From NCBI GenBank assembly GCA_903813345.2, contig CAIIXF020000002.1:33622109-33686108 (forward strand): a stretch of DNA of 64,000 bases, written 5' to 3'. The notes beneath the pieces were generated by a model. It was not told where the DNA came from, did no database searches, and saw only the letters and a program-made list of their open reading frames with translations. Below, piece after piece: positions 5,801 to 64,000 of this stretch. The stretch comes from Owenia fusiformis. Taxonomy: Eukaryota > Annelida > Polychaeta > Sabellida > Oweniidae. The first letter of the stretch is position 1; the number at the start of each line of letters is the position of its first letter. Both the position numbers and the translations under genes were made by a program.

Positions 5801-8800
5801 TCACACCAATATATGTCACACCATTATGTCTGCAGGTATGCAGTTGCAGTGTTAGATAAGAACAGCTCTAAGGTGCAGATTCATGAGGCCCGCATCACTC
5901 AAATGCAGCCTTGTATCCATGGTGATGAATCCATTGATGATGTTACAGATTCTGGAACATCTTTTGTCCAAAAGGTAACTACTAAAGGGTTATGAAAAAG
6001 CACTTAGTAATTTGAAAATGTGACATAGTGAACCACACAACATGAAATTTGCAGCTTACTTAATGTGTACTCTTATTGTATGTTTTAATCCATTCACATG
6101 ATTTCAGAATGATTCTCTAACAAGTGTTTTTGGGAGCACAAAACGTAAACGTGCAATGCAATCAAGATTAAACAACAAACTAGGAGAAAAAGTATTGGAC
6201 CAGTCTGTAGGAAAAGCTGCCCAAAACATGATAACTGGGTCACCATCTCTTGTTCAAAATTTAATAAGTAAGTTTTCACTTTCAACCATTTTGGTTTGTC
6301 ATTAAGCTGGATAGAGACAGTTATTTGAAATACACTTTTCCTTTGTTTAATTTGAAGTATGCTTATACTGTTTCTTTGTTTATTAAAATAATTTCTCATT
6401 TTTTCATTCATATAATTTTTTTTTAACCAAACTTTGATTCAAATCCGGACATCACAATTCTCATGTTCATTTTAAAATATATATATTTCTCTTTAATTTG
6501 AGTTCAAAATGCTATTTTAAATACATTTTCCTTTGTTTAATTTGAAGTATGTTTACTGTTTCTTTGTTTTATTAAAAGAAATTCTCATTTTTTCATTTAT
6601 ATAATATTTTTTTAACCAAACTTTGATTCAAATCAGGACCACACAATTCTCCTGCTCATTTTAAAATATATATATTTCTTTTTAATTTGAGTTCAAAATG
6701 CTATTTTAAATGTTTCTACACATATTTAGTCTTAATCTATTAAAAATATGTCATTTTTACGTTGCCACCAGAAGTGGTGACATATTGTTTTAGTCTCTAA
6801 CATTTTTGTGGATGGTGTTCCATGGTTGGCATTCAGAATTCGGCATCTGTAACAATTTATGTTTGGCATCTGTGACAATTTGCAACAACTTACAAGGTGG
6901 TACCCTATACATATACATACATATACCCTATGGGGGTAGAAGTTCTGCTCGAAAGCCGATTTTCAAAATGGCCACTCATTTCAAAATGGCGGCCATTTTA
7001 GTGACTATTTTACAGTAATTTAGGTGCAATATGTAAAACTGTAATAGCAATATGTTTTAAATGTAAAAAAAATTATAAAGGACATTAATAATGCTACAAA
7101 TGTAGATATTAAAAAGCACATGGCAGCCATCTTGAAAAATGGCGGCCTTTACTCGTCATTTTACGATTTTTGCTGTAACTCAAAAAATAATGGAGCGATT
7201 TTGTTCATATTTGGTGTGTGAATACTATAAGCATTGCACACTGTCTAAAGACACTTTTGGTAGAAGGTGGGCCATTTTAACGTATTTTACTATAACTCGA
7301 AAAGTAGTGGAGCGATTTTGTTCATATTTGGTATGTGAATACTATAAGCATGGCACACTGTCCTATGACACTTTTGGTAGAAGGCGGCCATTTTGAAAAC
7401 AATTTTGAAAAATGGCCGCCATTTTAATGTATTTTACTATAACTTGAAAAGTAGTGGAGCGATTTTGTTCATATTTGGTATGTGAATACTATAAGCATGG
7501 AACACCGTCTATTTCTAATGACGCTTTTGGTAGAAGGTGGCCATTTTGAAAAATGGCCACCATTTTAACGTATTTTACTATAACTCGAAAAGTAGTGGAG
7601 CGATTTTGTTCATATTTGATATGTGAATACTTTAAGCATGGCACATTGTCTAATAAAACTTTGGGGAGTAGTCGGCCATTTTGAAAAATGGCCACCATTT
7701 TTACGTGTGTTATTTTATAAGTACGTGTGCGATTTTTCAAAAAATTTTAGAGGTGGCTACTTAAAAGCATATTATTTCTTCTGATGACAACTTGGCTAGT
7801 GAGCAACCATTTTGAAAATGGTGGCCTTTCTGGTGTGTTGTTTTATGATATTTGCCCTTCGTTTGTAAAAATGCCAGCCATTTCTGTTCGATGGGATTCG
7901 CTACGCTTTGGCGTTGCCGTTGTTCTGGTTCACTTTTACCTTATTGCAGCTCCTGTTAAACATGAGGAGATTACTGCCTCTGTCATCCCACCGTTTGACA
8001 GATCTGCCACCAGAGCCTGTGATGTATACCTTCTGGAGGATGGTATCCTTAAACAAATAAGTCTTCATGCTAGACTGATCATAGTCTTAGTGTAGCCAAT
8101 CCCCTTTTATGTCAAAATACTCCTAGATAATGTGTTATATACAGTTTGTCTATTCAAGCATGTTTTGTCTAATACCATTTAGTCACTTTACTGAACATGT
8201 AAGTTGTCCCAGATAATGTGCTGTACAGTTGGTCTATTTAAGCTTGTATTGTCTAATAATTTCTATGTAAGTTGTGCCAGATAATGTGCTATACAGTTGT
8301 TCTGTATTGTCTAATAATTTCTATTTAACTTAACATGTAAGTTGTGCCAGATAATGTACTATACAGTTGGTCTGTATTGTCTAATAATTTCTATTTAACT
8401 TAACATGTAAGTTGTGCCAGATGATGTGCTATACAGTTGGTCTGTATTGTCTAATAATTTCTATTTAACTTAACATGTAAGTTGTGCCAGATAATGTGCT
8501 ATACATTTGGTCTATTTAAGCGTGTTTTGTCTATTGATGTCTATTTAACTTAACATGTAAGTTGTGCCAGATAATGTGCTATACAGTTGGTCTTTTTAAG
8601 CGTGTTTTGTCTATTGATGTCTATTTAACTTAACATGTAAGTTGTGCCAGATAATGTACTGTACAGTTGGTCTATTTAAGCATATTTTGTCTATTGATGT
8701 CTATTTAACTTAACATATAAGTTGTGCCAGATCATGTGCTGTACAGTTGGTCTATTTAAGCTGGTATTGTCTAATAATTTCTATTTAACTTAACATGTAA

Positions 8801-11800
8801 GTTGTGCCAGATAATGTGCTGTACAGTTGGTCTATTTAAGTGTGTTTTGTCTAATGATGTCTATTTAACTTAACATATAAGTTGTGCCAGATCATGTGCT
8901 GTACAGTTGGTCTATTTAAGCTGGTATTGTCTAATAATTTCTATTTAACTTAACATGTAAGTTGTGCCAGATAATGTGCTGTACAGTTGGTCTATTTAAG
9001 CGTATTTTGTCTATTGATGTCTATTTAACTTAACATATAAGTTGTGCCAGATAATGTGCTGTACAGTTGGTCTATTTAAGCGTATTTTGTCTATTGATGT
9101 CTATTTAACTTAACATGTAAGTTGTGCCAGATAATGTGCTATACAGTTGGTCTATTTAAGCGTGTTTTGTCTATTGATGTCTATTTAACTTAACATGTAA
9201 GTTGTGCCAGATAATGTGCTATACAGTTGGTCTATTTAAGCGTGTTTTGTCTATTGATGTCTATTTAACTTAACATGTAAGTTGTGTCAGATAATGTGCT
9301 ATACAGTTGGTCTATTTAAGCGTATTTTGTCTATTGATGTCTATTTAACTTAACATGTAAGTTGTGCCAGATAATGTGCTATACAGTTGGTCTATTTAAG
9401 CGTGTTTTGTCTATTGATGTCTATTTAACTTAACATGTAAGTTGTGCCAGATAATGTGCTATACAGTTGGTCTATTTAAGCCTGTTTTGTCTATTGATGT
9501 CTATTTAACTTAACATGTAAGTTGTGCCAGATAATGTGCTATACAGTTGGTCTATTTAAGCGTGTTTTGTCTATTGATGTCTATTTAACTTAACATGTAA
9601 GTTGTGCCAGATAATGTGCTATACAGTTGGTCTATTTAAGCGTGTTTTGTCTATTGATGTCTATTTAACTTAACATGTAAGTTGTGCCAGATAACGTGCT
9701 GTACAGTTTGTCCAGTGAAGCCCATACTTTAGCAGATGCTCAGCCAGGACAGATAGCCCAGTGGACTACAGAGGCAAAGTAAACAACTTTTAAAGTTCCT
9801 CACCTTGCAGATTCACAGATAAAAAAACTCTAAAGGAATAACTCACTTGAATGTAAACAACTTAAAAGCCAATGTGCGAAAAAATTAGTCCAAACTTGTA
9901 GTCAGGCATAGGCATATGTATGTTTGTTTTGCTGAGTTTTTGAAACACACTTTAAACGTGAAACTAATACATGAATAATTTGATGATATACTTAAACTCA
10001 TGTGACTTATAAAAGAATGCGCACACAACTAGAGAAAAATGTAGGCTAAATATAAATTGGTTAAATGACATTTGTAGCTCTCTCTATGTTGTTGCTTTCA
10101 CACCGGATTAGCCTGACAACGGTAAAGTCAGATACCGTTGTCACAAATGGCGGACATAACCGTCGCTTCAATTAGATTTTCATGAACTGTATGTTTAATA
10201 GAGCACCTGGACTAAATTCCTTTGGAACAACAATCCCTTAAAGTGTCTACTCTTGATACTCAGTGTACTGTTAATAATGTTCACCATCGAAATAAAGTCT
10301 TTAATCTAACCAATCAAAATTAGATACAGGACAACAGATACTGTATTTCCATATGCTGTTGTCTTTGTAAATTATTTCAAATTCAGATTCCGTTGTCATT
10401 GACAATATGAAGATGCTATATTGTGGCGATTCATAACCCAATTTGATAGAAATTGGGATTTCATATGATACACCATCACAAGAGCTTAATGCATGCACAG
10501 AATTAGCGACGATAAAATTCCATGAAATGAGAAACAAGTGATTGAAGAGTTGAAGTGACGGTTATGTCCGCCATTTGTGAGAATGTTATCTGACTTTACC
10601 GTTGTCAGGCTATTCTGGTGTTAGCTTTGTTATTTTATACACATTAAACCAGATTTTGAAAATAACTTGCTTGTTAGACTTGCTTCAAATTAATGATTTA
10701 ATTTTATTATATTCAGATATCCAAGCTTCGTGCTGAGGAACTTGAAGGCTCTGCCTGTTGAAACAGGAGCCAGAATACACCGGGCTCAGTGCCTTTTATA
10801 CTACCACTACCTCATCATTCTCTATAACCTAAAGTATTCCCAGTACAGAAAGAAAGGTAAGATTATTCACCCAAAAGAGTATTTGGCCTCGGTTGAATTT
10901 GGAAATAAGCAATTTGGATTATTGGGAGTAAATGTATTTGGCCTCAGTTGAATTTATAAATAAGCAATCTGATTTGAGAGTACAATGTATTTGGCCTCAG
11001 TTGAATTTGGAAATAAGCAATCTGATTTGAGAGTACATGTATTTGGCCTCAGTTGAATTTAGAAATAAGCAATCTGATTTGAGAGTACATGTATTTGGCC
11101 TCAGTTGAATTTAGAAATAAGCAATCTGATTAAAGAGTACATGTATTTGGCCTCAGTTGAATTTAGAAATAAGCAATCTGATTTGAGAGTACATGTATTT
11201 GGCCTCAGTTGAATTTAGAAATAATATCTACCGTATTCTCTGTAATTAGCGCCCACTCTCTAATAAGCGCCCACCCCGCTTCACAAAGTTCAAGAAACAT
11301 CGAGGAATCAACAAGAATTGAAGAATATATCAGGAAAAAAATATTTCTCAAAATCCAGGAGCGGGCGATAATAGAGTACTTACCCTAAAACTGCTGTAAA
11401 CACGACGCGTTTTGTAATTCTATGCATCCTCTCGATACATATCTATCGATGGGTGCTTCCCACACCATACCATGCTAATATTGTCTCCAAATAGTCCATA
11501 ATGAATGAAGGAATTGTTCTTTATCGGCATTCAGAAATTTCAAAAGCTACTGCGCAGATGTTCTGCGCATGTCAAGGTCGTGAACTTTCTGGTTTCTTTT
11601 TAATGTTTCTCGACTTTTACACGACTTTTGCACGAATAATGATGATCTCTCATCAAATTAGAAATAATGTATAACTTTAGATCGATATCCAGCAGTCTCT
11701 AGTGGAAATATTGAAGGTAATCGGCGATAATGACAAAGTGGGCGTGCCGGAAATAAATTAGACATAGACGGGTCTTCAACCACTGTCAATATTGTCTAAG

Positions 11801-43100: not shown

Positions 43101-46100
43101 TTCATTTTAGGTGACCCTTATTGCAAAGAGGGGTCAACCGACTGCTCCCAGCAACACTTCATGGTGGCAATAATGCTTGCTGTTCAACTTTCATTTTAGG
43201 TGACCCTTATTGCAAAGAGGGGTCAACCGACTGCTCCCAGCAACACTTCATGGTGGCAATAATGCTTGCTGTTCAATTTTCATTTTAGGTGACCCTTATT
43301 GCAAAGAGGGGTCAACCGACTGCTCCCAGCAACACTTCATGGTGGCAATAATGCTTGCTGTTCAATTTTCATTTTAGGTGACCCTTATTGCAAAGAGGGG
43401 TCAACCGACTGCTCCCAGCAACACTTCATGGTGGCAATAATGCTTGCTGTTCAATTTTCATTTTAGGTGACCCTTATTGCAAAGAGGGGTCAACCGACTG
43501 CTCCCAGCAACACTTCATGGTGGCAATAATGCTTGCTGTTCAATTTTCATTTTAGGTGACCCTTATTGCAAAGAGGGGTCAACCGACTGCTCCCAGCAAC
43601 ACTTCATGGTGGCAATAATGCTTGCTGTTCAATTTTCATTTTAGGTGACCCTTATTGCAAAGAGGGGTCAACCGACTGCTCCCAGCAACACTTCATGGTG
43701 GCAATAATGCTTGCTGTTCAATTTTCATTTTAGGTGACCCTTATTGCAAAGAGGGGTCAACCGACTGCTCCAGCAACACTTCATGGTGGCAATAATGCTT
43801 GCTGTTCAATTTTCATTTTAGGTGACCCTTATTGCAAAGAGGGGTCAACCGACTGCTCCCAGCAACACTTCATGGTGGCAATAATGCTTGCTGTTCAATT
43901 TTCATTTTAGGTGACCCTTATTGCAAAGAGGGGTCAACCGACTGCTCCCAGCAACACTTCATGGTGGCAATAATGCTTGCTGTTCAATTTTCATTTTAGG
44001 TGACCCTTATTGCAAAGAGGGGTCAACCGACTGCTCCCAGCAACACTTCATGGTGGCAATAATGCTTGCTGTTCAATTTTCATTTTAGGTGACCCTTATT
44101 GCAAAGAGGGGTCAAGCGAGTGCTCCCAGCAACACTTCATGGTGGCAATAATGCTTGCTGTTCAATTTTCATTTTAGGTGACCCTTATTGCAAAGAGGGG
44201 TCAACCGACTGCTCCCAGCAACACTTCATGGTGGCAATAATGCTTGCTGTTCAATTTTCATTTTAGGTGACCCTTATTGCAAAGAGGGGTCAACCGACTG
44301 CTCCCAGCAACACTTCATGGTGGCAATAATGCTTGCTGTTCAACTCTCATTTTAGGTGACCCTTATTGCAAAGAGGGGTCAACCGACTGCTCCCAGCAAC
44401 ACTTCATGGTGGCAATAATGCTTGCTGTTCAATTTTCATTTTAGGTGACCCTTATTGCAAAGAGGGGTCAACCGACTGCTCCCAGCAACACTTCATGGTG
44501 GCAATAATGCTTGCTGTTCAATTTTCATTTTAGGTGACCCTTATAGCAAAGAGGGGTCAACCGACTGCTCCCAGCAACACTTCATGGTGGCAATAATGCT
44601 TGCTGTTCAATTTTCATTTTAGGTGACCCTTATTGCAAAGAGGGGTCAACCGACTGCTCCCAGCAACACTTCATGGTGGCAATAATGCTTGCTGTTCAAT
44701 TTTCATTTTAGGTGACCCTTATTGCAAAGAGGGGTCAACCGACTGCTCCCAGCAACACTTCATGGTGGCAATAATGCTTGCTGTTCAATTTTCATTTTAG
44801 GTGACCCTTATTGCAAAGAGGGGTCAACCGACTGCTCCCAGCAACACTTCATGGTGGCAATAATGCTTGCTGTTCAATTTTCATTTTAGGTGACCCTTAT
44901 TGCAAAGAGGGGTCAACCGACTGCTCCCAGCAACACTTCATGGTGGCAATAATGCTTGCTGTTCAATTTTCATTTTAGGTGACCCTTATTGCAAAGAGGG
45001 GTCAACCGACTGCTCCCAGCAACACTTCATGGTGGCAATAATGCTTGCTGTTCAATTTTCATTTTAGGTGACCCTTATTGCAAAGAGGGGTCAACCGACT
45101 GCTCCCAGCAACACTTCATGGTGGCAATAATGCTTGCTGTTCAATTTTCATTTTAGGTGACCCTTATTGCAAAGAGGGGTCAACCGACTGCTCCCAGCAA
45201 CACTTCATGGTGGCAATAATGCTTGCTGTTCAATTTTCATTTTAGGTGACCCTTATTGCAAAGAGGGGTCAACCGACTGCTCCCATGCAACACTTCATGG
45301 TGGCAATAATGCTTGCTGTTCAATTTTCATTTTAGGTGACCCTTATTGCAAAGAGGGGTCAACCGACTGCTCCCAGCAACACTTCATGGTGGCAATAATG
45401 CTTGCTGTTCAATTTTCATTTTAGGTGACCCTTATTGCAAAGAGGGGTCAACCGACTGCTCCCAGCAACACTTCATGGTGGCAATAATGCTTGCTGTTCA
45501 ATTTTCATTTTAGGTGACCCTTATTGCAAAGAGGGGTCAACCGACTGCTCCCAGCAACACTTCATGGTGGCAATAATGCTTGCTGTTCAATTTTCATTTT
45601 AGGTGACCCTTATTGCAAAGAGGGGTCAAGCGACGTGCTCCCAGCAACACTTCATGGTGGCAATAATGCTTGCTGTTCAATTTTCATTTTAGGTGACCCT
45701 TATTGCAAAGAGGGGTCAACCGACTGCTCCCAGCAACACTTCATGGTGGCAATAATGCTTGCTGTTCAATTTTCATTTTAGGTGACCCTTATTGCAAAGA
45801 GGGGTCAACCGACTGCTCCCAGCAACACTTCATGGTGGCAATAATGCTTGCTGTTCAACTCTCATTTTAGGTGACCCTTATTGCAAAGAGGGGTCAACCG
45901 ACTGCTCCCAGCAACACTTCATGGTGGCAATAATGCTTGCTGTTCAATTTTCATTTTAGGTGACCCTTATTGCAAAGAGGGGTCAACCGACTGCTCCCAG
46001 CAACACTTCATGGTGGCAATAATGCTTGCTGTTCAACTCTTCATTTTAGGTGACCCTTATTGCAAAGAGGGGTCAACCGACTGCTCCCAGCAACACTTCA

Positions 46101-49100
46101 TGGTGGCAATAATGCTTGCTGTTCAATTTTCATTTTAGGTGACCCTTATTGCAAAGAGGGGTCAACCGACTGCTCCCAGCAACACTTCATGGTGGCAATA
46201 ATGCTTGCTGTTCAATTTTCATTTTAGGTGACCCTTATTGCAAAGAGGGGTCAAGCGACGTGCTCCCAGCAACACTTCATGGTGGCAATAATGCTTGCTG
46301 TTCAATTTTCATTTTAGGTGACCCTTATTGCAAAGAGGGGTCAACCGACTGCTCCCAGCAACACTTCATGGTGGCAATAATGCTTGCTGTTCAATTTTCA
46401 TTTTAGGTGACCCTTATTGCAAAGAGGGGTCAACCGACTGCTCCCAGCAACACTTCATGGTGGCAATAATGCTTGCTGTTCAATTTTCATTTTAGGTGAC
46501 CCTTATTGCAAAGAGGGGTCAACCGACTGCTCCCAGCAACACTTCATGGTGGCAATAATGCTTGCTGTTCAATTTTCATTTTAGGTGACCCTTATTGCAA
46601 AGAGGGGTCAACCGACTGCTCCCAGCAACACTTCATGGTGGCAATAATGCTTGCTGTTCAACTCTCATTTTAGGTGACCCTTATTGCAAAGAGGGGTCAA
46701 CCGACTGCTCCCAGCAACACTTCATGGTGGCAATAATGCTTGCTGTTCAATTTTCATTTTAGGTGACCCTTATTGCAAAGAGGGGTCAACCGACTGCTCC
46801 CAGCAACACTTCATGGTGGCAATAATGCTTGCTGTTCAATTTTCATTTTAGGTGACCCTTATTGCAAAGAGGGGTCAACCGACTGCTCCCAGCAACACTT
46901 CATGGTGGCAATAATGCTTGCTGTTCAATTTTCATTTTAGGTGACCCTTATTGCAAAGAGGGGTCAACCGACTGCTCCCAGCAACACTTCATGGTGGCAA
47001 TAATGCTTGCTGTTCAATTTTCATTTTAGGTGACCCTTATTGCAAAGAGGGGTCAACCGACTGCTCCCAGCAACACTTCATGGTGGCAGATAATGCTTGC
47101 TGTTCAATTTTCATTTTAGGTGACCCTTATTGCAAAGAGGGGTCAACCGACTGCTCCCAGCAACACTTCATGGTGGCAATAATGCTTGCTGTTCAATTTT
47201 CATTTTAGGTGACCCTTATTGCAAAGAGGGGTCAACCGACTGCTCCCAGCAACACTTCATGGTGGCAATAATGCTTGCTGTTCAATTTTCATTTTAGGTG
47301 ACCCTTATTGCAAAGAGGGGTCAACCGACTGCTCCCAGCAACACTTCATGGTGGCAATAATGCTTGCTGTTCAATTTTCATTTTAGGTGACCCTTATTGC
47401 AAAGAGGGGTCAACCGACTGCTCCCAGCAACACTTCATGGTGGCAATAATGCTTGCTGTTCAATTTTCATTTTAGGTGACCCTTATTGCAAAGAGGGGTC
47501 AACCGACTGCTCCCAGCAACACTTCATGGTGGCAATAATGCTTGCTGTTCAATTTTCATTTTAGGTGACCCTTATTGCAAAGAGGGGTCAACCGACTGCT
47601 CCCAGCAACACTTCATGGTGGCAATAATGCTTGCTGTTCAATTTTCATTTTAGGTGACCCTTATTGCAAAGAGGGGTCAACCGACTGCTCCCAGCAACAC
47701 TTCATGGTGGCAATAATGCTTGCTGTTCAACTCTCATTTTAGGTGACCCTTATTGCAAAGAGGGGTCAACCGACTGCTCCCAGCAATACTTCATGGTGGC
47801 AATAATGCTTGCTGTTCAATTTTCATTTTAGGTGACCCTTATTGCAAAGAGGGGTCAACCGACTGCTCCCAGCAACACTTCATGGTGGCAATAATGCTTG
47901 CTGTTCAATTTTCATTTTAGGTGACCCTTATTGCAAAGAGGGGTCAACCGACTGCTCCCAGCAACACTTCATGGTGGCAATAATGCTTGCTGTTCAATTT
48001 TCATTTTAGGTGACCCTTATTGCAAAGAGGGGTCAACCGACTGCTCCCAGCAACACTTCATGGTGGCAATAATGCTTGCTGTTCAATTTTCATTTTAGGT
48101 GACCCTTATTGCAAAGAGGGGTCAACCGACTGCTCCCAGCAACACTTCATGGTGGCAATAATGCTTGCTGTTCAATTTTCATTTTAGGTGACCCTTATTG
48201 CAAAGAGGGGTCAACCGACTGCTCCCAGCAACACTTCATGGTGGCAATAATGCTTGCTGTTCAATTTTCATTTTAGGTGACCCTTATTGCAAAGAGGGGT
48301 CAAGCGACTGCTCCCAGCAACACTTCATGGTGGCAATAATGCTTGCTGTTCAATTTTCATTTTAGGTGACCCTTATTGCAAAGAGGGGTCAACCGACTGC
48401 TCCCAGCAACACTTCATGGTGGCAATAATGCTTGCTGTTCAATTTTCATTTTAGGTGACCCTTATTGCAAAGAGGGGTCAACCGACTGCTCCCAGCAACA
48501 CTTCATGGTGGCAATAATGCTTGCTGTTCAATTTTCATTTTAGGTGACCCTTATTGCAAAGAGGGGTCAACCGACTGCTCCCAGCAACACTTCATGGTGG
48601 CAATAATGCTTGCTGTTCAATTTTCATTTTAGGTGACCCTTATTGCAAAGAGGGGTCAACCGACTGCTCCCAGCAACACTTCATGGTGGCAATAATGCTT
48701 GCTGTTCAATTTTCATTTTAGGTGACCCTTATTGCAAAGAGGGGTCAAGCGACTGCTCCCAGCAACACTTCATGGTGGCAATAATGCTTGCTGTTCAATT
48801 TTCATTTTAGGTGACCCTTATTGCAAAGAGGGGTCAACCGACTGCTCCCAGCAACACTTCATGGTGGCAATAATGCTTGCTGTTCAATTTTCATTTTAGG
48901 TGACCCTTATTGCAAAGAGGGGTCAACCGACTGCTCCCAGCAACACTTCATGGTGGCAATAATGCTTGCTGTTCAATTTTCATTTTAGGTGACCCTTATT
49001 GCAAAGAGGGGTCAACCGACTGCTCCCAGCAACACTTCATGGTGGCAATAATGCTTGCTGTTCAATTTTCATTTTAGGTGACCCTTATAGCAAAGAGGGG

Positions 49101-50968
49101 TCAACCGACTGCTCCCAGCAACACTTCATGGTGGCAATAATGCTTGCTGTTCAATTTTCATTTTAGGTGACCCTTATTGCAAAGAGGGGTCAACCGACTG
49201 CTCCCAGCAACACTTCATGGTGGCAATAATGCTTGCTGTTCAATTTTCATTTTAGGTGACCCTTATTGCAAAGAGGGGTCAAGCGAGTGCTCCCAGCAAC
49301 ACTTCATGGTGGCAATAATGCTTGCTGTTCAATTTTCATTTTAGGTGACCCTTATTGCAAAGAGGGGTCAACCGACTGCTCCCAGCAACACTTCATGGTG
49401 CCGATAATGCTTGCTGGTTATATGTTATTTGGAAATATACTCATGATCAATCTCCTGATTGCTGTATTCAGGTTAGTGGCAAACATTTTACATATATGTT
49501 CTATTGCAGTCACATGCATATTTATAAAAACATTTTACTTACGCTCAATTTCAGTCACATACTACTAAAGATGTTTCACAAACGCTCATTTTCAGTCACA
49601 TACTTACTTAAATATTTCACAAACGCTTTTCAGTCACATACTTACTTAAATATTTCACAAACGCTTTTCAGTCACATACTTACTTAAATATTTCATAAAC
49701 GCTTTTCAGTCACATATACGAGGAGGTTGCGAGTAACTCAGAGCAGCTTTGGAAGGCGACTAGATACCATCTTGTGATAGAATACAGAGACAAACCAGTG
49801 TTTGCCCCTCCTTTGATCGTCCTAGCATTGTTTTGGCGGATGGTTGTTAACATATGTAATTGGGCGCATGCGTTCAAAGAGAAATCCCAAGAAGGTGAAT
49901 TAGTTAGAATTTTGAATATCACGTTGATGTGAGAAAGCGCAAAGAGCAACAATTGAATTAAAACAGAAATACAGCAATAATGTAGATATTTAAACTTATT
50001 ACAGTATAACTATAAGACATAGTACCGTTTGTTTACTCATCAATTGTAGACGACGATTTATAAGAATATCACACTTATAGACGTATAGAGCTAATAATGA
50101 TGACGTAATGGATCAAATGCTTCATAAGGTATACGTTATACGGGAATAATAAACATGCTATGAGTTGCTAATATCCATGTATAGACTGTATGTATTTTTA
50201 TTTCATGAATTAATTGAACGAATATATGATTTGTATTAAAGGACACACAGACAGTGATATATTGAAGCAATTTGAGGCTGATTGTTTGTCCAACTACATC
50301 AAACGCCACAGAGATGAGGGCGAGCAAAAAACTGATCAGATGCTTAAAACTATATTAGACCTGTGAGTATCATATATTGGGAGTGTTTTGAAATGTTCAG
50401 TAAATTGATATTTAATGCAAACTAATTAACACACCAACATTTTCTTATATTCAAATTTTGATGTTTACACTTATCATGGTATAGGCTAAATAAATTCATT
50501 ACAGTATAGATTACAGATGATGTTGGTAGTAGTAGAAGTTATCATATATGTGGATTATCGTTTGTATTTAAGCTCATTCACATTATTTATTTATCACTAA
50601 GGCAACGAACCATAGAAACAGAGCGTCGGGAACGCGCTGAAGAAGAAAAGCAACGTTACCAACGTGAATTGCTGCTCCAGGAAAAATCACCACCGCCAAA
50701 CAGTGCAAACGTGAAATCAAAGTCTAAGCCTCAGCTCAAAAATTCAAACACGATCGCCAACAAAGACCCTGACCCTCAGCTTCCTAAAGGACCTGGCAAA
50801 AACAGTGATCGTGATGAACAAATAACAACTGGGATTGTAGGGAATCAGATCTCTTGCAATATAAATCCCCCGCTTACATTGGTTGATAACGCAGGCAAGA
50901 TGTCTAGCGGTGACGACACAGATACAGATGACGATGACAACACTTCTCCGAAAAAGAGTCTAATTTAG
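20057..50968 (+). CDS. TRPM: TRPM-family cation channel, complete 25-exon gene
   Basis: Exons: 20057-20104, 20461-20549, 24569-24730, 25316-25394, 25575-25748, 25955-26152, 26822-26999, 27331-27508, 27695-27860, 28041-28107, 29216-29309, 29860-30046, 30391-30541, 34636-34825, 35076-35219, 35918-36059, 36929-37006, 37417-37548, 37786-37929, 38270-38533, 39048-39222, 49345-49471, 49710-49894, 50242-50362, 50602-50968. They sum to 3840 nt, 1279 residues plus TAG, with every phase matching. In-frame TGA at 20024 supports this start; M3 and M6 are alternatives. TRPM channels are tetrameric, Ca2+/monovalent-permeable plasma- or organelle-membrane channels. The order is that of the family: N-terminal melastatin homology region, six membrane segments with pore loop, TRP helix, C-terminal coiled coil. 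There is no alpha-kinase or NUDT9-like domain. The symbol is given at family level only; the subtype is unresolved. Introns 13 and 21 hold a tRNA cluster and a 10-kb minisatellite. Confidence 0.93.
21531..22450. mobile_element. 920-bp fold-back (nearly full-length palindrome) in TRPM intron 2
   Basis: ATCACGCGGTACTAACTC (21532-21549) is mirrored by GAGTTAGTACCGCGTGAT (22432-22449). The two arms of about 450 bp match almost throughout: both hold ACGCCCCGC, TTGGTCCCCAGATGTGAGAA, and CATTACAACCCTCCATC / GATGGAGGGTTGTAATG. They meet at a centre rich in AAAACGCCCCG near 21950-22040. ORFs in either direction are mirror images of each other, so they are shadows. A related smaller element lies just after the TRPM stop (50979-51294). 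Confidence 0.85.
22888..23575 (-). mobile_element. Inverted copy of the POLR1E intron 3 element core, in TRPM intron 2
   Basis: It is the reverse complement of about 3930-4620, with high identity. Shared landmarks are ATGACCTGAATCGATTGCAA, TGAAGTGTAGAGGCATAGAT and CATTTGCATCCTACGCATCC. The outer ends differ from the 3818-4937 copy. The sequence to about 24095 ends CGGGACACCCTGTAC, so it may be nested in another element. Confidence 0.75.
26279..26630. repeat. Palindromic low-complexity element of 'GTTTCACCCC' units in TRPM intron 6
   Basis: Many short units of TAGACATTTCACCCC type on one side are mirrored by GGGGTGAAACGTC units on the other (AGACGTTTCAC at 26279, GTGAAACGTCT at 26620-26630). 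It would fold as a long imperfect hairpin. A (CA)n microsatellite precedes it at about 26203-26222. Confidence 0.7.
29216..36059 (+). CDS. TRPM: TRPM exons 11-16: melastatin homology regions 3-4
   Basis: Residues about 447-749. AYKWQRADIAKSIIDYE matches the family 'A..W.R.DIA...I' helix; LVDLFINALRDDKVEFVKMLLESG matches the 'L...AL..D...FV.LLLE.G' ankyrin-like helical repeat. ELFLWAIIMGRQDIGKLLW matches the conserved 'LF.WA...N....A...W' pre-S1 segment. The block is split by intron 13 (30542-34635), which contains the tRNA-Tyr cluster. Confidence 0.85.
30173..30325. mobile_element. 153-bp MITE in TRPM intron 12
   Basis: CAGTCACATTTG and CAAATGTGACTG are exact 12-bp terminal inverted repeats, continuing imperfectly through CTACGGC / GCCGTAG. 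It has no ORF. Confidence 0.75.
30885..30971 (-). pseudogene. tRNA-Tyr pseudogene (degenerate cluster copy)
   Basis: It is collinear with the intact copies downstream, but the acceptor stem no longer pairs (CTCTGGCGAACCAGAG at the 3' side), GCGTC is shortened, and the T arm reads GACTCTGG. It is the leftmost and most decayed member of the cluster. Confidence 0.7.
31071..31158 (-). tRNA. tRNA-Tyr (GTA), intron-containing, cluster copy 2
   Basis: Minus-strand 88-nt gene. Acceptor stem TCTCGTG / CGCGAGA, A box TAGCTCAGTTGG, anticodon loop CTGTAG with GTA anticodon, a short intron of about 14 nt (CGTCTAAACCTGTC) directly after position 37, T arm with GGTTCGACTCC, and a T6 Pol III terminator just downstream (GAGGACATTTTTT on the minus strand). 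Intron position and GTA anticodon are typical of eukaryotic tRNA-Tyr. Confidence 0.88.
31252..31339 (-). tRNA. tRNA-Tyr (GTA), cluster copy 3
   Basis: Same structure as copy 2. One acceptor-stem base differs (TCTCATG instead of TCTCGTG), giving an A-C mismatch, so function is less sure. The Pol III terminator is present. Confidence 0.75.
31434..31521 (-). tRNA. tRNA-Tyr (GTA), cluster copy 4
   Basis: Intact acceptor stem, A and B boxes and GTA anticodon with intron; a single base differs in the variable/T-arm region (GGTTACTGG for GGTCACTGG). Confidence 0.82.
31615..31702 (-). tRNA. tRNA-Tyr (GTA), cluster copy 5
   Basis: Same as copy 2 across the mature tRNA, with the T-run terminator. It sits in the same repeating unit of about 182 bp, whose spacer carries ATTACATGAATTGATATATG. 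Confidence 0.87.
31796..31883 (-). tRNA. tRNA-Tyr (GTA), cluster copy 6
   Basis: Mature sequence as in the intact copies; the intron reads TGGCTAAACC in place of CGTCTAAACC, right after the anticodon loop. The terminator run is five T residues. It is the last copy before the 2.3-kb interruption. Confidence 0.83.
31961..33460. mobile_element. 1.5-kb inverted-repeat element interrupting the tRNA-Tyr cluster
   Basis: ATTACACACTACCCTACC at the left and GGTAGGGTAGTGTGAAT at the right are about 18-bp inverted ends. The interior has no long ORF. It separates tRNA copies 6 and 7, which otherwise belong to one tandem array. Confidence 0.65.
33640..34040 (+). other. GC-richer segment of unknown origin in TRPM intron 13
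   Basis: The base composition changes from the AT-rich surroundings: TTATGGCCCCCTGGGGATTA near 33670, then CGTCGGCCGATGAATCG, GATGAAGGGCGTCCTGCGCG and GCCGACGCCGATAGCCCGGT. The GATGAAGGGCGT string recalls the 5' part of organelle or bacterial large-subunit rRNA, but a dozen bases prove nothing. It has no ORF. Confidence 0.3.
34215..34302 (-). tRNA. tRNA-Tyr (GTA), cluster copy 7
   Basis: Intact acceptor stem, GTA anticodon, intron and B box; the D-loop/anticodon-stem edge has GGCAGACCGGGGG in place of GGTAGAGCGGGGG. It lies after the element insertion. Confidence 0.8.
34397..34484 (-). tRNA. tRNA-Tyr (GTA), cluster copy 8
   Basis: Matches copy 2 across the mature tRNA, with a run of seven T residues as terminator. 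It is the right-most copy, 152 bp before TRPM exon 14 and antisense to the host gene. Confidence 0.87.
36087..36217 (-). mobile_element. 131-bp MITE, AGGGAGTTTAAG family (copy 2)
   Basis: It is the reverse complement of the 17439-17570 element with few differences: shared AAAATCGAA(A/T)CGCCAACCTA, TACGTATGACCAATCGCCCA and GTGAAAAACATTGCAAGCTT. It starts about 27 bp after the TRPM exon 16 donor. Confidence 0.75.
36416..36905. mobile_element. 490-bp inverted-repeat element in TRPM intron 16
   Basis: GGAGAGGTTAAGC and GCTTAACCTCTCC are exact 13-bp inverted ends, with a second inner pair (ACGTATACGTAAACGCAA / GATACGTTTAAGTTGCGT, imperfect). It ends 23 bp before exon 17 and resembles a longer relative of the AGGGAGTTTAAG family. 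Confidence 0.65.
36929..39222 (+). CDS. TRPM: TRPM exons 17-21: pre-S1 through pore loop
   Basis: Residues about 750-1013. S1 ISQIIFILLFSYFILF (about 820-835), S2 VIELILMVWTGTLMLEEIRQ, S3 LWNLVDFGGMLLVVTAF, S4 CLLWYCRVCNVFLT..LLIMILRM, S5 VEVVFFLIILAVFLVGYGV. EEIRQ at the end of S2 and the WN.VDFG motif at S3 are TRPM hallmarks. The pore loop HPFWNLLGELNLEEVEG has a Gly-Glu pair at the filter position, closer to the 'YGE' of TRPM1/3/6/7 than to the 'FGQ' of TRPM2/8. That suggests divalent permeability (inference). Confidence 0.88.
38651..38792 (+). mobile_element. 142-bp GTCACCACTAG element in TRPM intron 20
   Basis: It starts GTCACCACTAGAAGGGGTGG and ends GACAGGTGGTGAC, short inverted ends. 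CATATTGTTATAGTC and CGTCTGTAATAAGTGACAGG recur in a minus-strand copy at 55932-56062. A fragment is visible near 6768-6870. Confidence 0.55.
39373..49344 (+). repeat. Splice-junction minisatellite: TRPM exon 22 acceptor, 89-bp unit, about 112 copies
   Basis: Almost all of TRPM intron 21. The unit begins GTGACCCTTATTGCAAAGAG, runs through the first 70 nt of exon 22, then switches to intronic TTCAATTTTCATTTTAG and restarts. Each copy therefore carries a full polypyrimidine tract and AG plus the pore-turret code GDPYCKEGSTDCSQQHFMV. Spacing is 89 bp, with rare indels (for example CTGCTCCAGC near 43770, GCGACGTGC at 45627 and 46252, GGTGGCAGATAATG near 47085). 89 is not a multiple of three, and each unit ends its own frame at the TAG of the next acceptor, so decoy use truncates the channel before S6. 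Small ORFs inside are shadows. Confidence 0.95.
49345..49471 (+). CDS. TRPM: TRPM exon 22: pore turret and S6
   Basis: It starts right after the last acceptor of the 89-bp array. It encodes GDPYCKEGSTDCSQQHFMVP (outer pore with a likely Cys-Cys disulfide, residues about 1014-1033) and then S6, IMLAGYMLFGNILMINLLIAV. The family motif 'NLLIAVF' ends S6. The first 70 nt of this exon are what the intron 21 array copies; the array versions read GGCAATAATGCTTGCTGTTC where the true exon reads CCGATAATGCTTGCTGGTTA. Confidence 0.92.
49498..49709 (+). repeat. Splice-junction minisatellite: TRPM exon 23 acceptor, about 37-46-bp unit, 5 copies
   Basis: CAGTCACAT recurs five times in intron 22 (after CTATTG, TCAATTT, TCATTTT, GCTTTT, GCTTTT) before the true acceptor GCTTTTCAG at 49701-49709, where the exon reads TCACATATACGAGG. 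The three right-hand units are almost identical and carry CACATACTTACTTAAATATT. A decoy would give S-H-I-L-T and then TAA. Confidence 0.85.
49710..50968 (+). CDS. TRPM: TRPM exons 23-25: TRP helix and C-terminal tail
   Basis: Exon 23 encodes the TRP helix region (SEQLWKATRYHLVIEYRDKP, matching the family 'QVWKFQRY.LI..F..RP') and APPLIVLALFWRMVVNIC. Exon 24 encodes an ankyrin-less helical segment (FEADCLSNYIKRHRDEGEQK), and exon 25 a Glu/Arg/Gln-rich short coiled coil (ERRERAEEEKQRYQRELLLQ) followed by a disordered Lys/Asn/Pro tail ending in an acidic run (GDDTDTDDDDN) and a basic finish. No enzyme domain follows. Stop TAG at 50966-50968. Confidence 0.88.
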
Positions 50969-50978
50969 TCAAGCTGGC

Positions 50979-56062: not shown

Positions 56063-56109
56063 GTAAAAATGTATCTGGTCTAATAATGTCTTCAGTGTTA
56101 CAGACGTTC

Positions 56110-59100
56110 CTAGCAGCACCCTCCTTTAGAATTATCTGATGGAGCGCAACAGGCACCTTTTGAGGGTCCTCCCTTAGCCAGGTACTCAAATGGATCAACT
56201 ATATCCTCCTGAAAATAATTTAACAATGAGATTGAGAACAATTGAACAACTTCAAAATGCGACCATATATATTTTTTTATGTTGGGTCAAGTGACTGATT
56301 TTTATCTTTGTTCTTATGTATTATGTGTACTACATGTATCAAGCATTTTCAGGTGTAATAAAAGTACATATTAGTGTGCTGTGCTTGAAAAAAAATGTCA
56401 CAATTGAGTACAGATTGATCCAAGACACAAAATAAATTGATTATGTGTCGAGTTTGGACGACTATGTATTAAAGAGTTCAGTATTATTGATTACCATGTT
56501 CCACTCACCTCTTTTGGGGAACAGCTAGCTCCACCTTTTACTGCACTGGGTTGGAATGTGAACTCATCTGCAAGACGACTGCATTGTAGTATAGTAGAGA
56601 TATCACTGTCTACTGATACAACGTCACCAGCCTGTAATAAAGTATATAGAGATATACACAAAGTCTCTACAGACACACTGTCACTAGCCTGTAATGAAGT
56701 ATAGAGATATACACAAAGTCTCTACAGACACACTGTCACTAGCCTGTAATGAAGTATATAGAGATATACACAAAGTCTCTACAGACACACTGTCACTAGC
56801 CTGTAATAAAGTATATAGAGATATACACAAAGTCTTTATAGACACACCGTCACTAGCCTGTAATAAAGTATATAGAGATATACACAAAGTCTCTACAGAC
56901 ACACTGTCACTAGCCTGTAATGAAGTATATAGAGATATACACAAAGTCTCTACAGACACACTGTCACTAGCCTGTAATAAAGTATATAGAGATATACACA
57001 AAGTCTTTATAGACACACCGTCACTAGCCTGTAATAAAGTATATAGAGATATACACAAAGTCTCTACAGACACACTGTCACTAGCCTGTAATAAAGTATA
57101 TAGAGATATACACAAAGTCTTTATAGACACACCGTCACTAGCCTGTAATAAAGTATATAGAGATATACACAAAGTCTTTATAGACACACTGTCACTAGCC
57201 TGTAATAAAGTATATAGAGATATACACAAAGTCTCTACAGACACACTGTCACTAGCCTGTAATGAAGTATATAGAGATATACACAAAGTCTCTACAGACA
57301 CACTGTCACTAGCCTGTAATAAAGTATATAGAGATATACACAAAGTCTTTATAGACACACCGTCACTAGCCTGTAATAAAGTATATAGAGATATACACAA
57401 AGTCTTTATAGACACACCGTCACTAGCCTGTAATAAAGTATATAGAGATATACACAAAGTCTCTACAGACACACTGTCACTAGCCTGTAATGAAGTATAT
57501 AGAGATATACACAAAGTCTCTACAGACACACTGTCACTAGCCTGTAATGAAGTATATAGAGATATACACAAAGTCTCTACAGACACACTGTCACTAGCCT
57601 GTAATAAAGTATATAGAGATATACACAAAGTCTCTACAGACACACTGTCACTAGCCTGTAATGAAGTATATAGAGATATACACAAAGTCTCTACAGACAC
57701 ACTGTCACTAGCCTGTAATAAAGTATATAGAGATATACACAAAGTCTTTATAGACACACCGTCACTAGCCTGTAATAAAGTATATAGAGATATACACAAA
57801 GTCTTTATAGACACACTGTCACTAGCCTGTAATAAAGTATATAGAGATATACACAAAGTCTCTACAGACACACTGTCACTAGCCTGAAATGAAGTATATA
57901 GAGATATACACAAAGTCTCTACAGACACACTGTCACTAGCCTGTAATAAAGTATATAGAGATATACACAAAGTCTCTACAGACACACTGTCACTAGCCTG
58001 TAATGAAGTATATAGAGATATACACAAAGTCTCTACAGACACACTGTCACTAGCCTGTAATAAAGTATATAGAGATATACACAAAGTCTCTACAGACACA
58101 CTGTCACTAGCCTGTAATGAAGTATATAGAGATATACACAAAGTCTCTATAGACACACCGTCACTAGCCTGTAATGAAGTATATAGAGATATACACAAAG
58201 TCTCTACAGACACACTGTCACTAGCCTGTAATGAAGTATATAGAGATATACACAAAGTCTCTACAGACACACTGTCACTAGCCTGTAATAAAGTATATAG
58301 AGATATACACAAAGTCTCTACAGACACACTGTCACTAGCCTGTAATGAAGTATATAGAGATATACACAAAGTCTCTACAGACACACTGTCACTAGCCTGT
58401 AATAAAGTATATAGAGATATACACAAAGTCTTTATAGACACACCGTCACTAGCCTGTAATAAAGTATATAGAGATATACACAAAGTCTCTACAGACACAC
58501 TGTCACTAGCCTGTAATAAAGTATATAGAGATATACACAAAGTCTCTACAGACACACTGTCACTAGCCTGTAATGAAGTATATAGAGATATACACAAAGT
58601 CTCTACAGACACACTGTCACTAGCCTGTAATAAAGTATATAGAGATATACACAAAGTCTCTACAGACACACTGTCACTAGCCTGTAATAAAGTATATAGA
58701 GATATACACAAAGTCTCTACAGACACACTGTCACTAGCCTGTAATAAAGTATATAGAGATATACACAAAGTCTTTATAGACACACCGTCACTAGCCTGTA
58801 ATAAAGTATATAGAGATATACACAAAGTCTCTACAGACACACTGTCACTAGCCTGTAATAAAGTATATAGAGATATACACAAAGTCTTTATAGACACACC
58901 GTCACTAGCCTGTAATAAAGTATATAGAGATATACACAAAGTCTTTATAGACACACTGTCACCAGCCTGTAATAAAGTATATAGAGATATACACAAAGTC
59001 TCTACAGACACACTGTCACTAGCCTGTAATAAAGTATATAGAGATATACACAAAGTCTTTATAGACACACCGTCACTAGCCTGTAATAAAGTATATAGAG

Positions 59101-62100
59101 ATATACACAAAGTCTCTACAGACACACTGTCACTAGCCTGTAATGAAGTATATAGAGATATACACAAAGTCTCTACAGACACACTGTCACTAGCCTGTAA
59201 TAAAGTATATAGAGATATACACAAAGTCTCTACAGACACACTGTCACTAGCCTGTAATAAAGTATATAGAGATATACACAAAGTCTCTACAGACACACTG
59301 TCACTAGCCTGTAATGAAGTATATAGAGATATACACAAAGTCTCTACAGACACACTGTCACTAGCCTGTAATAAAGTATATAGAGATATACACAAAGTCT
59401 CTACAGACACACTGTCACTAGCCTGTAATGAAGTATATAGAGATATACACAAAGTCTCTACAGACACACTGTCACTAGCCTGTAATGAAGTATATAGAGA
59501 TATACACAAAGTCTCTATAGACACACCGTCACTAGCCTGTAATAAAGTATATAGAGATATACACAAAGTCTCTACAGACACACTGTCACTAGCCTGTAAT
59601 AAAGTATATAGAGATATACACAAAGTCTTTATAGACACACCGTCACTAGCCTGTAATGAAGTATATAGAGATATACACAAAGTCTCTACAGACACACTGT
59701 CACTAGCCTGTAATGAAGTATATAGAGATATACACAAAGTCTCTACAGACACACTGTCACTAGCCTGTAATAAAGTATATAGAGATATACACAAAGTCTC
59801 TACAGACACACTGTCAGTAGCCTGTAATAAAGTATATAGAGATATACACAAAGTCTTTATAGACACACCGTCACTTGCCTGTAATAAAGTATATAGAGAT
59901 ATACACAAAGTCTTTATGGACACACCGTCACTAGCCTGTAATGTTAAGATATCACCTTTGAATGAAACAATGTCTCCAGGCTATAATGTAGCATTATTAC
60001 CACCTTGCCGGGCCAGTTCTAGGGGTTTTAGTGCTAGTTAAGAAGGCATTCAATTTACTATATCGACCTGAGAAATGTGTGACGTCATAGTGGTGGTCCA
60101 TATGGACCGGTCTAGAATATATTCTGGACCAGCAATTTTTCCCCGGGAAATTAGATATGGTTCAGTGCGTAAGATGTTCTTGCTATTTCAATCCTGGTCG
60201 TTAACGGTGGTAATAATACTAATAACGTCATTTCTGCAAACAATAGTGAAATATTGGACCTTGGGTCTTTGGCCCTCGGTCCAATATTTCACTATATTGC
60301 CCTTAGAAATGACGTTATTGTACTATTATAGAGAGAGGAGTTAAATTAGGTTTATCGTTATTTTACAGGGAATATACAGGAAACCTGTCTAAGTGGAACA
60401 CATTTAGTACTTCTAAAAAGTGGTTCACTTGGAAGGTGTTCCACTTATAGAGGTTCATTTAACAATAAGTCAGTTGTTCTTGGCACTCTAAAAAGTGTTC
60501 CACTAACATGTATATTCCACTTCTACTTTACAGGGTCCACTGTTGTACAGTAAAACCTGTCTTAATGAACATCTCTCTCTAGTGAAAACCTGTCTCTAGT
60601 GGACTTCTGTACCTTTCAGATACATTTCTTTGGAAAAACATGTGTTCACTGTACACAGGTTCTACTGTTGTAATACTTACACAGAATATATGGTTGTAAT
60701 CTAACTTGAATTCTTTTTCAGAGTCTTCTATGTTTCCTTCATAAATCACTTGTGATGCTGGCTTCTCAGTCTTGGGGAGTTTAAACATACGGTAAGTGAC
60801 TGACACAAACTTGGCATCCCCTAAAGTAAATAACAAAGCATGAAAATAACATCAAACTGCAAAGGTGTAACACTATATTTTTAAAAATCTGATGAAATTA
60901 GAGTAAAAATATCAAGACATTTTGGACGACCCTAATTTATTGTGTACAGTATGTAACAAGCTCCACTTAGCAACTTTGATTAAAATAAGGATTATCATTA
61001 CACATGAATATCAAAAGAAACAGCAATTTCAACTTGTATTTTTCTAAACCAAAATCACCTGTAACGTTTGATGATCTTTAAACTTTTTGACATTAATATT
61101 CCCTGTTGTTTTCATCCATTCTGACCAATACAAATATCTAATGATAATAATGATAATCCTTCCACATAACTTTTATATCCTATATTTCTGTCTAACCTCT
61201 TTGCAAACTTTACAAACGTAAGGATACCATTATAAAAGAAAAATTGTACCTAGCACTTCTTTAAGCTCTGGCTTCGTAACTTCTATAATTCCAGCTTCTA
61301 CAAGTCTTGGCCGACTGAAGCCCACTTTCTTTGAAATGTCAACAAAATCCTTCCAATAGAGGGCGCCAGCTATGCATTCTCCTGGAATAAATAAATTAAA
61401 CTGAATATGATTTATCGAAGTATTATGGCTTATGAATGGTCAGTCATGGCTTGAAAGTGGTCACACTCAGAAAAATAGCTTGCTTCAATGCATGAGTTAT
61501 TGAATTGTATTGTTACCACGCTGACCATTCCCGGGAGCGTCTGACAGTGATTGACATACTGCCTATGTTGTTCTACTTTACAGAATGTGATATACAATAA
61601 CAAGATTCCATTGAAACCACATTTGAGATACATGTAGGGGAGGTCAGTGGTTGATGTAAGAACTTCTAAAAAAGAACTGCCAATTGAAACCAATTGTAAC
61701 TCCTCCAAAAATGTAACTTTTTAAAAACAACATAGTGACTTATAGTTAAATGATCCCCTGTATGTGGAGCAATGGAACACCTGAGTGGAACCTTTAGAAA
61801 TATCAAAGCCATATTCAACAGATTTACTGCATGTATTATGGCTAAGATGTATAGATCTGGGTGAATATCACCTACCCCATAAAACTTTATGTTTTCTAAT
61901 GTCATCAGATAGTTCCCTATCTGCATAAACATCACTGAAATAGAGCTCTCCACCTTCCTGAAATCATACATATTTCAACTGGTACTTCGGCTCCTGCCCT
62001 GATGATATACAACAGGGTAGGAGCTGGAGTAACCACATCAACATCATTTGATAACACAGTATATTTGATATTCTAAAATCAAAATAATATAACTATTACT

Positions 62101-63373
62101 AAAAAAACAATTTTTAGGGATGAACTGATCGATTGTATGCACTCTGTTAAACTAGTTTCACTTGAAAACAGTAGCTCTGTGGAGTAGCAAATCCCACCAA
62201 ACAAAATATATTTTATCAATTTAAAATACCTTGTCATCTTTGATGTTACATTATAGAAATATCCAGGAAATTAGAAGAAGTCTTGTCTCGTTTTGGTATT
62301 TGCATTATCAAAATCATTTAGAAATAAGTGGCCATATTGAAAATCCCTCCTTTAGCAGAGGTCCTTTGCCCATAAGACAGAAGCCTCCAATATTTGAACC
62401 AAATTCTGTAGATGGTATTTAAGTAACCACTTTGAAATTCAGTAACCCTCTTGAAACATTATCCTTGAGAAGCGCTCCTACAACACTAGGCCTCAGCACA
62501 TAAAATTTTGACCAAATCTGTCAATCGGTATTTGAGTTATTGCAAAGATACACAAACAGATGAACAGAAGGATGGGTGGATTCTCTATATCCCTACAAAC
62601 TTCATTCGGTGGGATAATTAACAAATACAAATTTTTGCAACAAAAATAACTAATATTTCTTAAATGAAATCTAGTGTTCTTACCTTGAGTACTCTATAAG
62701 CCTCGGCTATAACTGCATGCTTGTCATTAATACTAGTGTTCTTACCTTGAGTACTCTATAAGCCTCAGCTATAACTGCATGCTTGTCATTAATACTAGTG
62801 TTCTTACCTTGAGTACTCTATAAGCCTCAGCTATAACTGCATGCTTGTCATTAATACTAGTGTTCTTACCTTGAGTACTCTATAAGCCTCAGCTATAACT
62901 GCATGCTTGTCATTAATTCTAGTGTTCTTACCTTGAGTACTCTATAAGCCTCAGCTATAACTGCATGCTTGTCATTAATTCTAGTGTTCTTACCTTGAGT
63001 ACTCTATAAGCCTCAGCTATAACTGCATGCTTGTCATTAATTCTAGTGTTCTTACCTTGAGTACTCTATAAGCCTCAGCTATAACTGCATGCTTGTCATT
63101 AATTCTAGTGTTCTTACCTAGAGTACTCTATAAGCCTCAGCTATAACTGCATGCTTGTCATTAATTCTAGTGTTCTTACCTAGAGTACTCTATAAGCCTC
63201 AGCTATAACTGCATGCTTGTCATTAATTCTAGTGTTCTTACCTTGAGTACTCTATAAGCCTCAGCTATAACTGCATGCTTGTCATTTATACTAGTGTTCT
63301 TACCTTGAGTACTCTGTAAGCCTCAGCTATAACTGCATGCTTGTCTGGGGAGAGGTTAATAACACAGTTGGAG
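56110..63373 (-). CDS. AS3MT: Arsenite methyltransferase, 3' six exons (5' part beyond right edge)
   Basis: Minus-strand exons in order: 63373-63304, 61957-61876, 61381-61250, 60820-60681, 56631-56509, 56208-56110 (stop TAG). With the two bases carried over from the upstream exon they give 215 residues plus stop, all phases agreeing. AS3MT uses S-adenosylmethionine to methylate trivalent arsenic in the cytosol. Matches to the family: VSNCVINLSPDK and AEAYRVLK (end of the SAM-binding fold; the Cys is the conserved catalytic one), GGELYFSDVYADRELSDDI, KVLWGECIAGALYWKDF (second conserved Cys), GDAKFVSVTYRMFK, QVIYEG, AGDVVSVDSDISTILQ, DPFEYLAK, and a Cys-rich C-terminus (GACCAPSDNSKGGCC). The SAM-binding N-terminus is outside the window. 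Three introns carry splice-junction arrays. Confidence 0.93.
56632..59945 (-). repeat. Splice-junction minisatellite: AS3MT penultimate-exon acceptor, 57-bp unit, about 58 copies
   Basis: On the minus strand each unit reads TATACTTTATTACAG followed by GCTAGTGACAGTGTGTCTGT. The last acceptor is the true one, where the exon continues GCTGGTGACGTTGTATCAGT. The unit is 19 codons, has no stop and is in the same frame as the exon, so it reads ASDSVSVETLCISLYTLLQ over and over; the exon itself reads AGDVVSVDSDISTILQ. Two main variants alternate (SVSVETL and GVSIKTL, with rare GVSIETL recombinants). The second unit upstream of the exon has a 2-bp deletion (AGTATAGAG near 56698), which breaks the frame. 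Confidence 0.93.
60220..60320. repeat. 100-bp perfect-looking hairpin (MITE-like)
   Basis: AATAACGTCATTTCT / AGAAATGACGTTATT ends with a long inner pair ATAGTGAAATATTGGACC / GGTCCAATATTTCACTAT around a short loop. It lies in an AS3MT intron. Confidence 0.75.
62660..63303 (-). repeat. Splice-junction minisatellite: AS3MT internal donor, 62-bp unit, about 10 extra copies
   Basis: Exon 63373-63304 ends (minus strand) AGAGTACTCAAG followed by GTAAGAACACTAG. The intron then repeats AAGCATGCAGTTATAGCTGA..GAGTACTCAAG and GTAAGAACACTAG about ten more times at 62-bp spacing, so the last 39 nt of the exon and the donor are copied into the intron. Read-through past the true donor meets TAA within six codons (V-R-T-L-V-stop). 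Copies differ by single bases (TACTCTAG / TACTCAAG; AATACTAG / AATTCTAG). Confidence 0.92.
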
Positions 63374-63785
63374 CTAAAAATACAACAATTCTCAAATACA
63401 GGTTTTACTGACTATTACAAGCACATGACCCCTGAACCAGATAAACAATTTCATGCTGACATACGGCATCATAAATTACAGTTCTCTTTGAGCCCCCCCT
63501 CCCTCATATCAGGACCGCTCTCAAAATTGTAAGCATTTACTGATATTTTTGAATTTTTTGAACTACAAACTTGCTTCCTTTCAATTGTTTAGAATTTCCC
63601 ACCTTCCTAAAACATGATAAATTATGACCATGATAATTAGTATACTGTTGCAAGTAATTGTCATCATTTGAAATCACAACTTCTAAAGGAGATTACATGC
63701 CAGTCTTGAAATTTATTCTCCTCTAAACTGTGTGTTAACTTAACCTGAGGCAAAATAACTTGCAATAAATAAATGTTAACAAATG

Positions 63786-64000
63786 TATTCTCTTCTCACA
63801 CTATGATGTCAAATGCATTGTCTACTTACACAATGATGTCAAATGCATTGTCTACTCACACAATGATGTCAAATGCATTGTCTACTCACACAATGATGTC
63901 AAATGCATTGTCTACTCACACAATCATGTCAAATACATTGTCTACTCACACAATCATGTCAAATGCATTGTCTACTCACACAATCATGTCAAATGCATTG
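63786..64000 (-). repeat. Splice-junction minisatellite: upstream AS3MT donor, 30-bp unit, at least 7 copies
   Basis: Minus-strand units read CAATGCATTTGACATCATTG then TGTGAGTAGA. This fits the end of the preceding AS3MT exon, N-A-F-D-I-I-V with the last codon split (GT, donor GTGAGT), joining exactly to the C of VSNCVINL in the next exon. The in-window copies are probably the intronic ones, since three to the right read GACATGATT and the array continues past 64000. The true exon should lie just beyond the edge. Confidence 0.8.

Follow-up and report, generated by a model that had tools for sequence, protein, structure and literature searches.

Six tandem arrays at the splice junctions of three genes

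The window examined here is a stretch of 64,000 nucleotides (64 kb; contig CAIIXF020000002.1, positions 33,622,109 to 33,686,108) in which tandem arrays span exon-intron borders of three genes: POLR1E (RPA49), TRPM and, on the minus strand, AS3MT. Gene spans were defined from open reading frames (ORFs) and protein matches in a structure database rather than from annotation. POLR1E was identified by its match to 7ob9 (E 4.9e-18), TRPM by PDB entry 6co7 (E 6e-61) and AS3MT by 8xt7 (E 2.8e-27), which backs the assignment to three genes made in an earlier note on the window.

That note had described six arrays whose units each hold a genuine splice site and the adjoining exon edge. Tandem Repeats Finder (TRF), which returned 42 rows for the window, recovered all six (A1 to A6; Table 1); A6 is cut by the window edge and was completed from the fetched flank (L001), where its donor exon (...NTFDIIV) lies within an ORF at L001:678-815. 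In every array, the unit comprises a real splice site and 7-57 bp of adjoining exon. Sequence and reading frame place the working junction in the exon-side end copy, as the note had proposed, an arrangement that is genuine but partly a consequence of geometry. The division into four acceptor arrays (A1 to A4) and two donor arrays (A5 and A6) was likewise borne out, as were unit lengths of 80, 89, 57, 62 and 30 bp; that of A3 is 38 bp instead of about 37 bp. The TRPM intron bearing A2 runs from 39223 to 49344. The exon frame of A1, DNVLYSLSSEAH, was compared by eye with human POLR1E.

Six junction-spanning arrays among roughly eight intronic ones had been counted in the note. The six stand, but the denominator is 12, as twelve arrays with a TRF score of at least 200 lie within the three gene spans (Table 1), and nine of these contain at least three copies. 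The six units, compared with one another, have no sequence in common, and a stretch of A1, searched in the genome, found its own locus only, among the matches listed. Together with nine more arrays in myosin genes, this agrees with the note's view that a single process has acted many times, as opposed to a single repeat that spread.

Table 1. Positions of in-gene arrays in the window (TRF score at least 200) and of junction arrays in the myosin regions (local positions)
Array	Position	Strand	Type	Gene and genuine junction
A1	8118..9722 (TRF 8125-9712)	+	80-bp acceptor array	POLR1E; exon start 9690, preceding donor 8043
A2	39341..49416	+	89-bp acceptor array, 113 copies, 10 kb	TRPM pore exon; exon 49345-49471
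A3	49498..49716 (TRF core 49549-49716; outer copies upstream degenerate)	+	38-bp acceptor array	next TRPM exon; start 49710
A4	56609..59942	-	57-bp acceptor array, 58 copies	AS3MT; exon start 56631
A5	62670..63345	-	62-bp donor array, 11 copies	AS3MT; donor GT from 63303
A6	63780..64000, on to C2:33686500 (L001:701)	-	30-bp donor array, 20.4 copies	AS3MT
Other in-gene array	6322
Other in-gene array	7157
Other in-gene array	7402
Other in-gene array	10879
Other in-gene array	26277
Other in-gene array	30885
M1	42720-44115		acceptor
M3	17812-18933		donor
M6	1567-2066		donor
M6	4289-4880		donor
M6	5018-6088		acceptor
M6	7426-8522		acceptor
M6	11887-13826		unit of whole exon + 19 bp intron
N1	5155-5320		donor
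N2	6164-6299		donor

Junction arrays in a sample of myosin genes

Arrays were compared with random placement in a sample of myosin genes. Myosin_head was searched in the genome (498 Mb; contigs C1 to C12), which gave at least 92 matches, with 65 of 210 candidates scored, and 14 regions (245 kb) were picked blind to repeats. Seven of these start at C9:5780001 (M1), C9:28840001 (M2), C7:3433001 (M3), C1:8391001 (M4), C10:25511001 (M5), C4:24493001 (M6) and C10:21594001 (M7), and N1 to N7 are a further seven loci; the listed myosin places at C1:57.4, C7:30.9, C10:8.1, C10:19.5 and C12:13.5 Mb lie outside the sample. A hidden Markov model built from the sampled regions themselves called 128 exons and 222 junctions, and seven junctions were added by hand in M6 and M3 where the protein demands an exon, giving 229 called junctions.

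Nine of the 32 in-gene arrays span junctions, five of them in the gene M6. Within the 14 regions, M5, M7, N5, N6 and N7 had zero counted arrays, and M2, M4, N3 and N4 had arrays with none on a junction. A candidate microexon donor array in M3 (8385-8532; EIDMANNA, GTGAGT) was counted as non-spanning because the adjacent exons join in frame without it. Window and myosin sample together yield 15 junction arrays, on four contigs (C2, C4, C7 and C9).

In the null model, a one-unit seed per array was placed randomly in the gene span with wholly exonic places excluded, and in the test with the seven added junctions the null also received 62 pseudo-junctions to allow for exons missed elsewhere. In that test the nine junction-spanning arrays compare with 3.59 expected (P=0.004). 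When the comparison was restricted to arrays with at least three copies by their best TRF row, a cut chosen post hoc with the data already seen, the excess was 8/19 against 1.82 (P=5e-5), or 4/15 against 0.83 when M6 was left out (P=0.006) and 5/17 against 1.21 with strictly blind junctions (P=0.002). An alternative copy definition gave 9/25 against 3.0 (P=0.0005), and arrays below three copies showed no excess in the myosin sample (0/7 against 0.59). Arrays may cluster near junctions more widely, since 12 of 32 lie within 80 bp of one (7.31 expected, P=0.03; the count omits M1 44281-44773).

Two arrays of M1 (C9:5780001-5830000), at local 24523-24921 and 44281-44773, start 24 and ~8 bp past a donor, with the donor excluded.

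Genome-wide, we counted triples, in which a splice word occurs three times at intervals of 30-60 bp, using the mirrored word as control. Per single occurrence, GTAAGT recurred 1.93 times as often as its mirror (7555 triples per 263,026 singles against 7563 per 508,831), AGGTAAGT 2.70 times (536 per 19,109 against 352 per 33,902) and TTTCAG 1.86 times (7871 per 592,735 against 2552 per 357,508), which agrees with a modest junction excess. A single mirror word is a thin control and the counts track copies, not arrays; the first 100 listed AGGTAAGT rows represent six places, and part of the TTTCAG triples lie in an AT-rich dispersed repeat.

At C1:120767-127062, GTAAGT is repeated at ~86-bp spacing across more than 6 kb, which makes it another array of donor or satellite type.

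Splice sites, reading frames and edges of the copies

A copy-by-copy alignment covered 13 of the 15 junction arrays (M6 4289 and 7426 lie outside it). In the splice dinucleotides, 2 of 654 letters are variant, compared with 514 of 22,241 letters at other positions. This constancy was significant against random neighbouring pairs (P=0.008) and against the same dinucleotide elsewhere in the 11 arrays having one (P=0.014), and extended to the 6-nt intron-side core (P=0.047). As the dinucleotides are nearly invariant across copies, the decoy sites are not being purged. The four copies of N2 are identical and those of A1 and M1 are the most divergent, as expected of arrays differing in age. The exon-edge variant CATGGTGCCGATAATG of the genuine A2 exon (49394) has one other occurrence in the window, in an interior A2 copy at 42804, which points to exchange or conversion linking the array with its working copy.

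Among 297 motif-matched decoys in the 15 arrays, five keep an open frame (one in A4, two in M6 1567 and two in N2) and 292 are predicted to cause a premature stop; in A2, all 112 of 112 decoy acceptors truncate the protein. Because nearly all decoys truncate the protein, a full-length protein would in most cases depend on use of the end copy, and we infer that exon-proximal splice choice is required for function.

On the minus strand, A4 contains an open frame of 1098 codons (window 56684-59980) encoding a 19-residue repeat, and its consensus frame is open. We rejected A4 as a long repeat protein, as only the nearest of its 57 decoys (1/57) stays open into the exon; the second copy measures 55 bp, which breaks the frame before the exon. 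Recursive splicing was also set aside for the window arrays, since AG/GT at the junction occurs only in A2 among the four acceptor arrays.

Unit edges were read by eye in all 15 arrays; seven could be scored and the other eight were too indistinct. The breakpoint is blunt in N2, with 1 bp shared in M3 and 2 bp in N1, and in A2, A3, A6 and M1 imperfect direct repeats of ~12-16 bp lie at the breakpoints, exon side versus intron side. As far as they can be read, these edges are more in keeping with slippage or end joining at short repeats than with a mobile element.

Known relatives and proposed origin

No named class had been known to the writer of the earlier note. Such a class exists: 'mirages' were named in amphioxus, in Adh3 and the globin genes BflGb6 and BflGb9 (PMC3087553, PMC3902484), and the second report also mentions TnC as a case and PGBD5 as having similar repeats (PMC3902484). 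The amphioxus globin authors described arrays at boundaries of either type, with units that vary in length and differ in number between haplotypes; their RT-PCR results were compatible with regular splicing, and they proposed intron gain. In our 15 arrays, tandem units likewise span the exon-intron boundary, and 5' and 3' exon boundaries are both affected (acceptors A1-A4, M1 and M6 5018 and 7426; donors A5, A6, M3, M6 1567 and 4289, N1 and N2). Unit length and sequence are gene-specific (30-260 bp; the six window units are without similarity), and the AG and GT signals are kept in the copies (652/654 letters in 13 of 15 arrays). Judged by its sequence, the structure agrees with every mirage feature that could be compared, and the class is a known one.

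The hosts reported so far are cephalochordates. The present genome looks spiralian instead: in the Hox cluster on C1, one gene has a Lox5-type homeodomain, 93% identical to a typed Lox5-like query, followed by KLTGP, a combination that we take to be a spiralian signature. Array size also differs, as amphioxus BflGb6 has 6 and 3 units in its two haplotypes, whereas up to 113 copies and 10 kb were found here (in one assembly, from sequence only). What is new here is therefore the host lineage, the array size and a rough frequency, and not the class itself.

Other systems resemble these arrays in part. Human segmental duplications contain internal tandem repeats with units of ~30 bp on average, and like the present arrays some of these minisatellite units lie at exon-intron boundaries; they differ in that novel introns are formed, the transcripts mostly also retain the repeat and the genes are recent paralogs (PMC2812944). 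The minisatellite of IFI6 (6-16) resembles our donor arrays in its donor-bearing repeat units within a gene, but two of its units are used as donors (PMC4526556), whereas most decoys here are predicted to truncate the protein. Intron gain by tandem genomic duplication (PMC4974935) shares the in-gene tandem duplication as a source of intron change; here, in contrast, existing introns grow. Earthworm metallothionein has first-intron minisatellites and fourth-exon duplications, which are not termed junction arrays in the available text (PMC12783039), and no annelid or mollusc report of junction-spanning minisatellites was recognised in the open-access literature by titles and abstracts.

We consider it probable that the arrays are mirage-type minisatellites that began as tandem duplications straddling exon-intron borders, were tolerated by exon-proximal splicing and then expanded. 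A short segment across the border would be duplicated through a common type of error, whether slippage, end joining or exchange at short repeats, and the extra copies of splice site and exon edge would land on the intron side. The spliceosome would pick the copy beside the exon body, as exon definition predicts; the remainder would therefore be removed as intron, making the duplication nearly neutral. The array could then expand and be homogenised by unequal exchange or conversion, and selection on the anchoring edge copy may contribute to the excess at junctions.

Several points weigh against this scenario. The low variation of the splice dinucleotides is not predicted by plain neutrality of the copies, and exon-proximal splicing was deduced from the DNA, not from RNA. 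The seven hand-added junctions, all in M6 and M3, were introduced after inspection of the arrays (two are one base off, which leaves the overlaps unchanged). When junctions were called strictly blind, 5 of the 30 arrays scoring at least 200 span one against 2.72 expected (P=0.11), as do 5 of the 42 scoring at least 100 against 3.07 (P=0.17). Leaving M6 out of the comparison of 9 of 32 arrays lowers it to 4 of 27, with 2.18 expected (P=0.16). The placement test takes arrays as independent, which the five arrays of M6 make doubtful. The bias of arrays to splice junctions proposed in the note, ~2.5-fold over random placement, is thus only moderately supported, the excess coming largely from one gene.

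These figures bear most directly on chance as an explanation, namely that minisatellites and exons are so abundant in this genome that some arrays are bound to overlap junctions even if there is no bias. Random placement alone predicts 3.6 of 32, and the raw number of GTAAGT triples equals that of its mirror. However, the excess among arrays of three or more copies persists without M6 and with blind calls, although the cut was post hoc, and all three splice words recur in tandem more often per single than their mirrors; we regard chance alone as unlikely, though still to be reckoned with.

Alternatively, selection might keep the splice sites because several copies are used as alternative or stepwise sites. 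The intact dinucleotides would be expected, and repeat units do serve as splice donors in human IFI6 (PMC4526556). Against such use stand the premature stops predicted from 292 of 297 decoys and the presence of the recursive-type AG/GT in A2 only, among the four acceptor arrays of the window; moreover, recent expansion with conversion from the edge copy would equally yield intact sites. We therefore think functional copies improbable. A bolder reading, which we hold to be doubtful, is that junctions here are hot spots of array birth or persistence, that the intact splice sites of the copies are maintained, and that an anchor copy held by selection keeps re-seeding its array, so that the arrays would form a class that renews itself and constantly feeds intron growth across unrelated animal phyla.

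Inflated or false arrays produced by assembly are very unlikely: the array lengths do come from one assembly, but the 15 arrays lie on four contigs with differing units, copy variants and flanks, and a like structure is reported in amphioxus. Spread of the units by a mobile element with splice-like ends can practically be dismissed, for although introner-type elements carry splice sites, the six window units contain the exon edges of their own genes and show no mutual similarity, and a stretch of A1 was found at its own locus only, among the matches listed.

The presence of the arrays in a spiralian-looking host, where the myosin sample has nine of them for 229 called junctions, suggests a process that extends beyond a single lineage, makes introns longer and supplies extra splice sites. 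It also opens intron change by tandem duplication to testing. The A2 intron, where 112 decoy acceptors precede the real one, lends itself to testing how spliceosomes select one of many nearly identical sites.

Other repeats were also observed. Within the TRPM gene span, a tandem array of a 181-bp unit (window 30885-31887) holds an 89-nt tRNA-Thr(TGT) gene in its unit, and two more copies of the tRNA lie 3 kb beyond it (window 34214-34484). A repeat family of 117-141 bp, recognised by eye from consensus units, forms short arrays both in a POLR1E intron (window 7157-7706) and beside a myosin gene (L031 8452-8978), and is probably a dispersed element. At C9:37986009-37994334 (L035, positions 9 on; minus strand), twelve successive matches to myosin motor positions ~18-84 mark a single muscle-myosin exon repeated in tandem, and the copies may be mutually exclusive exons.

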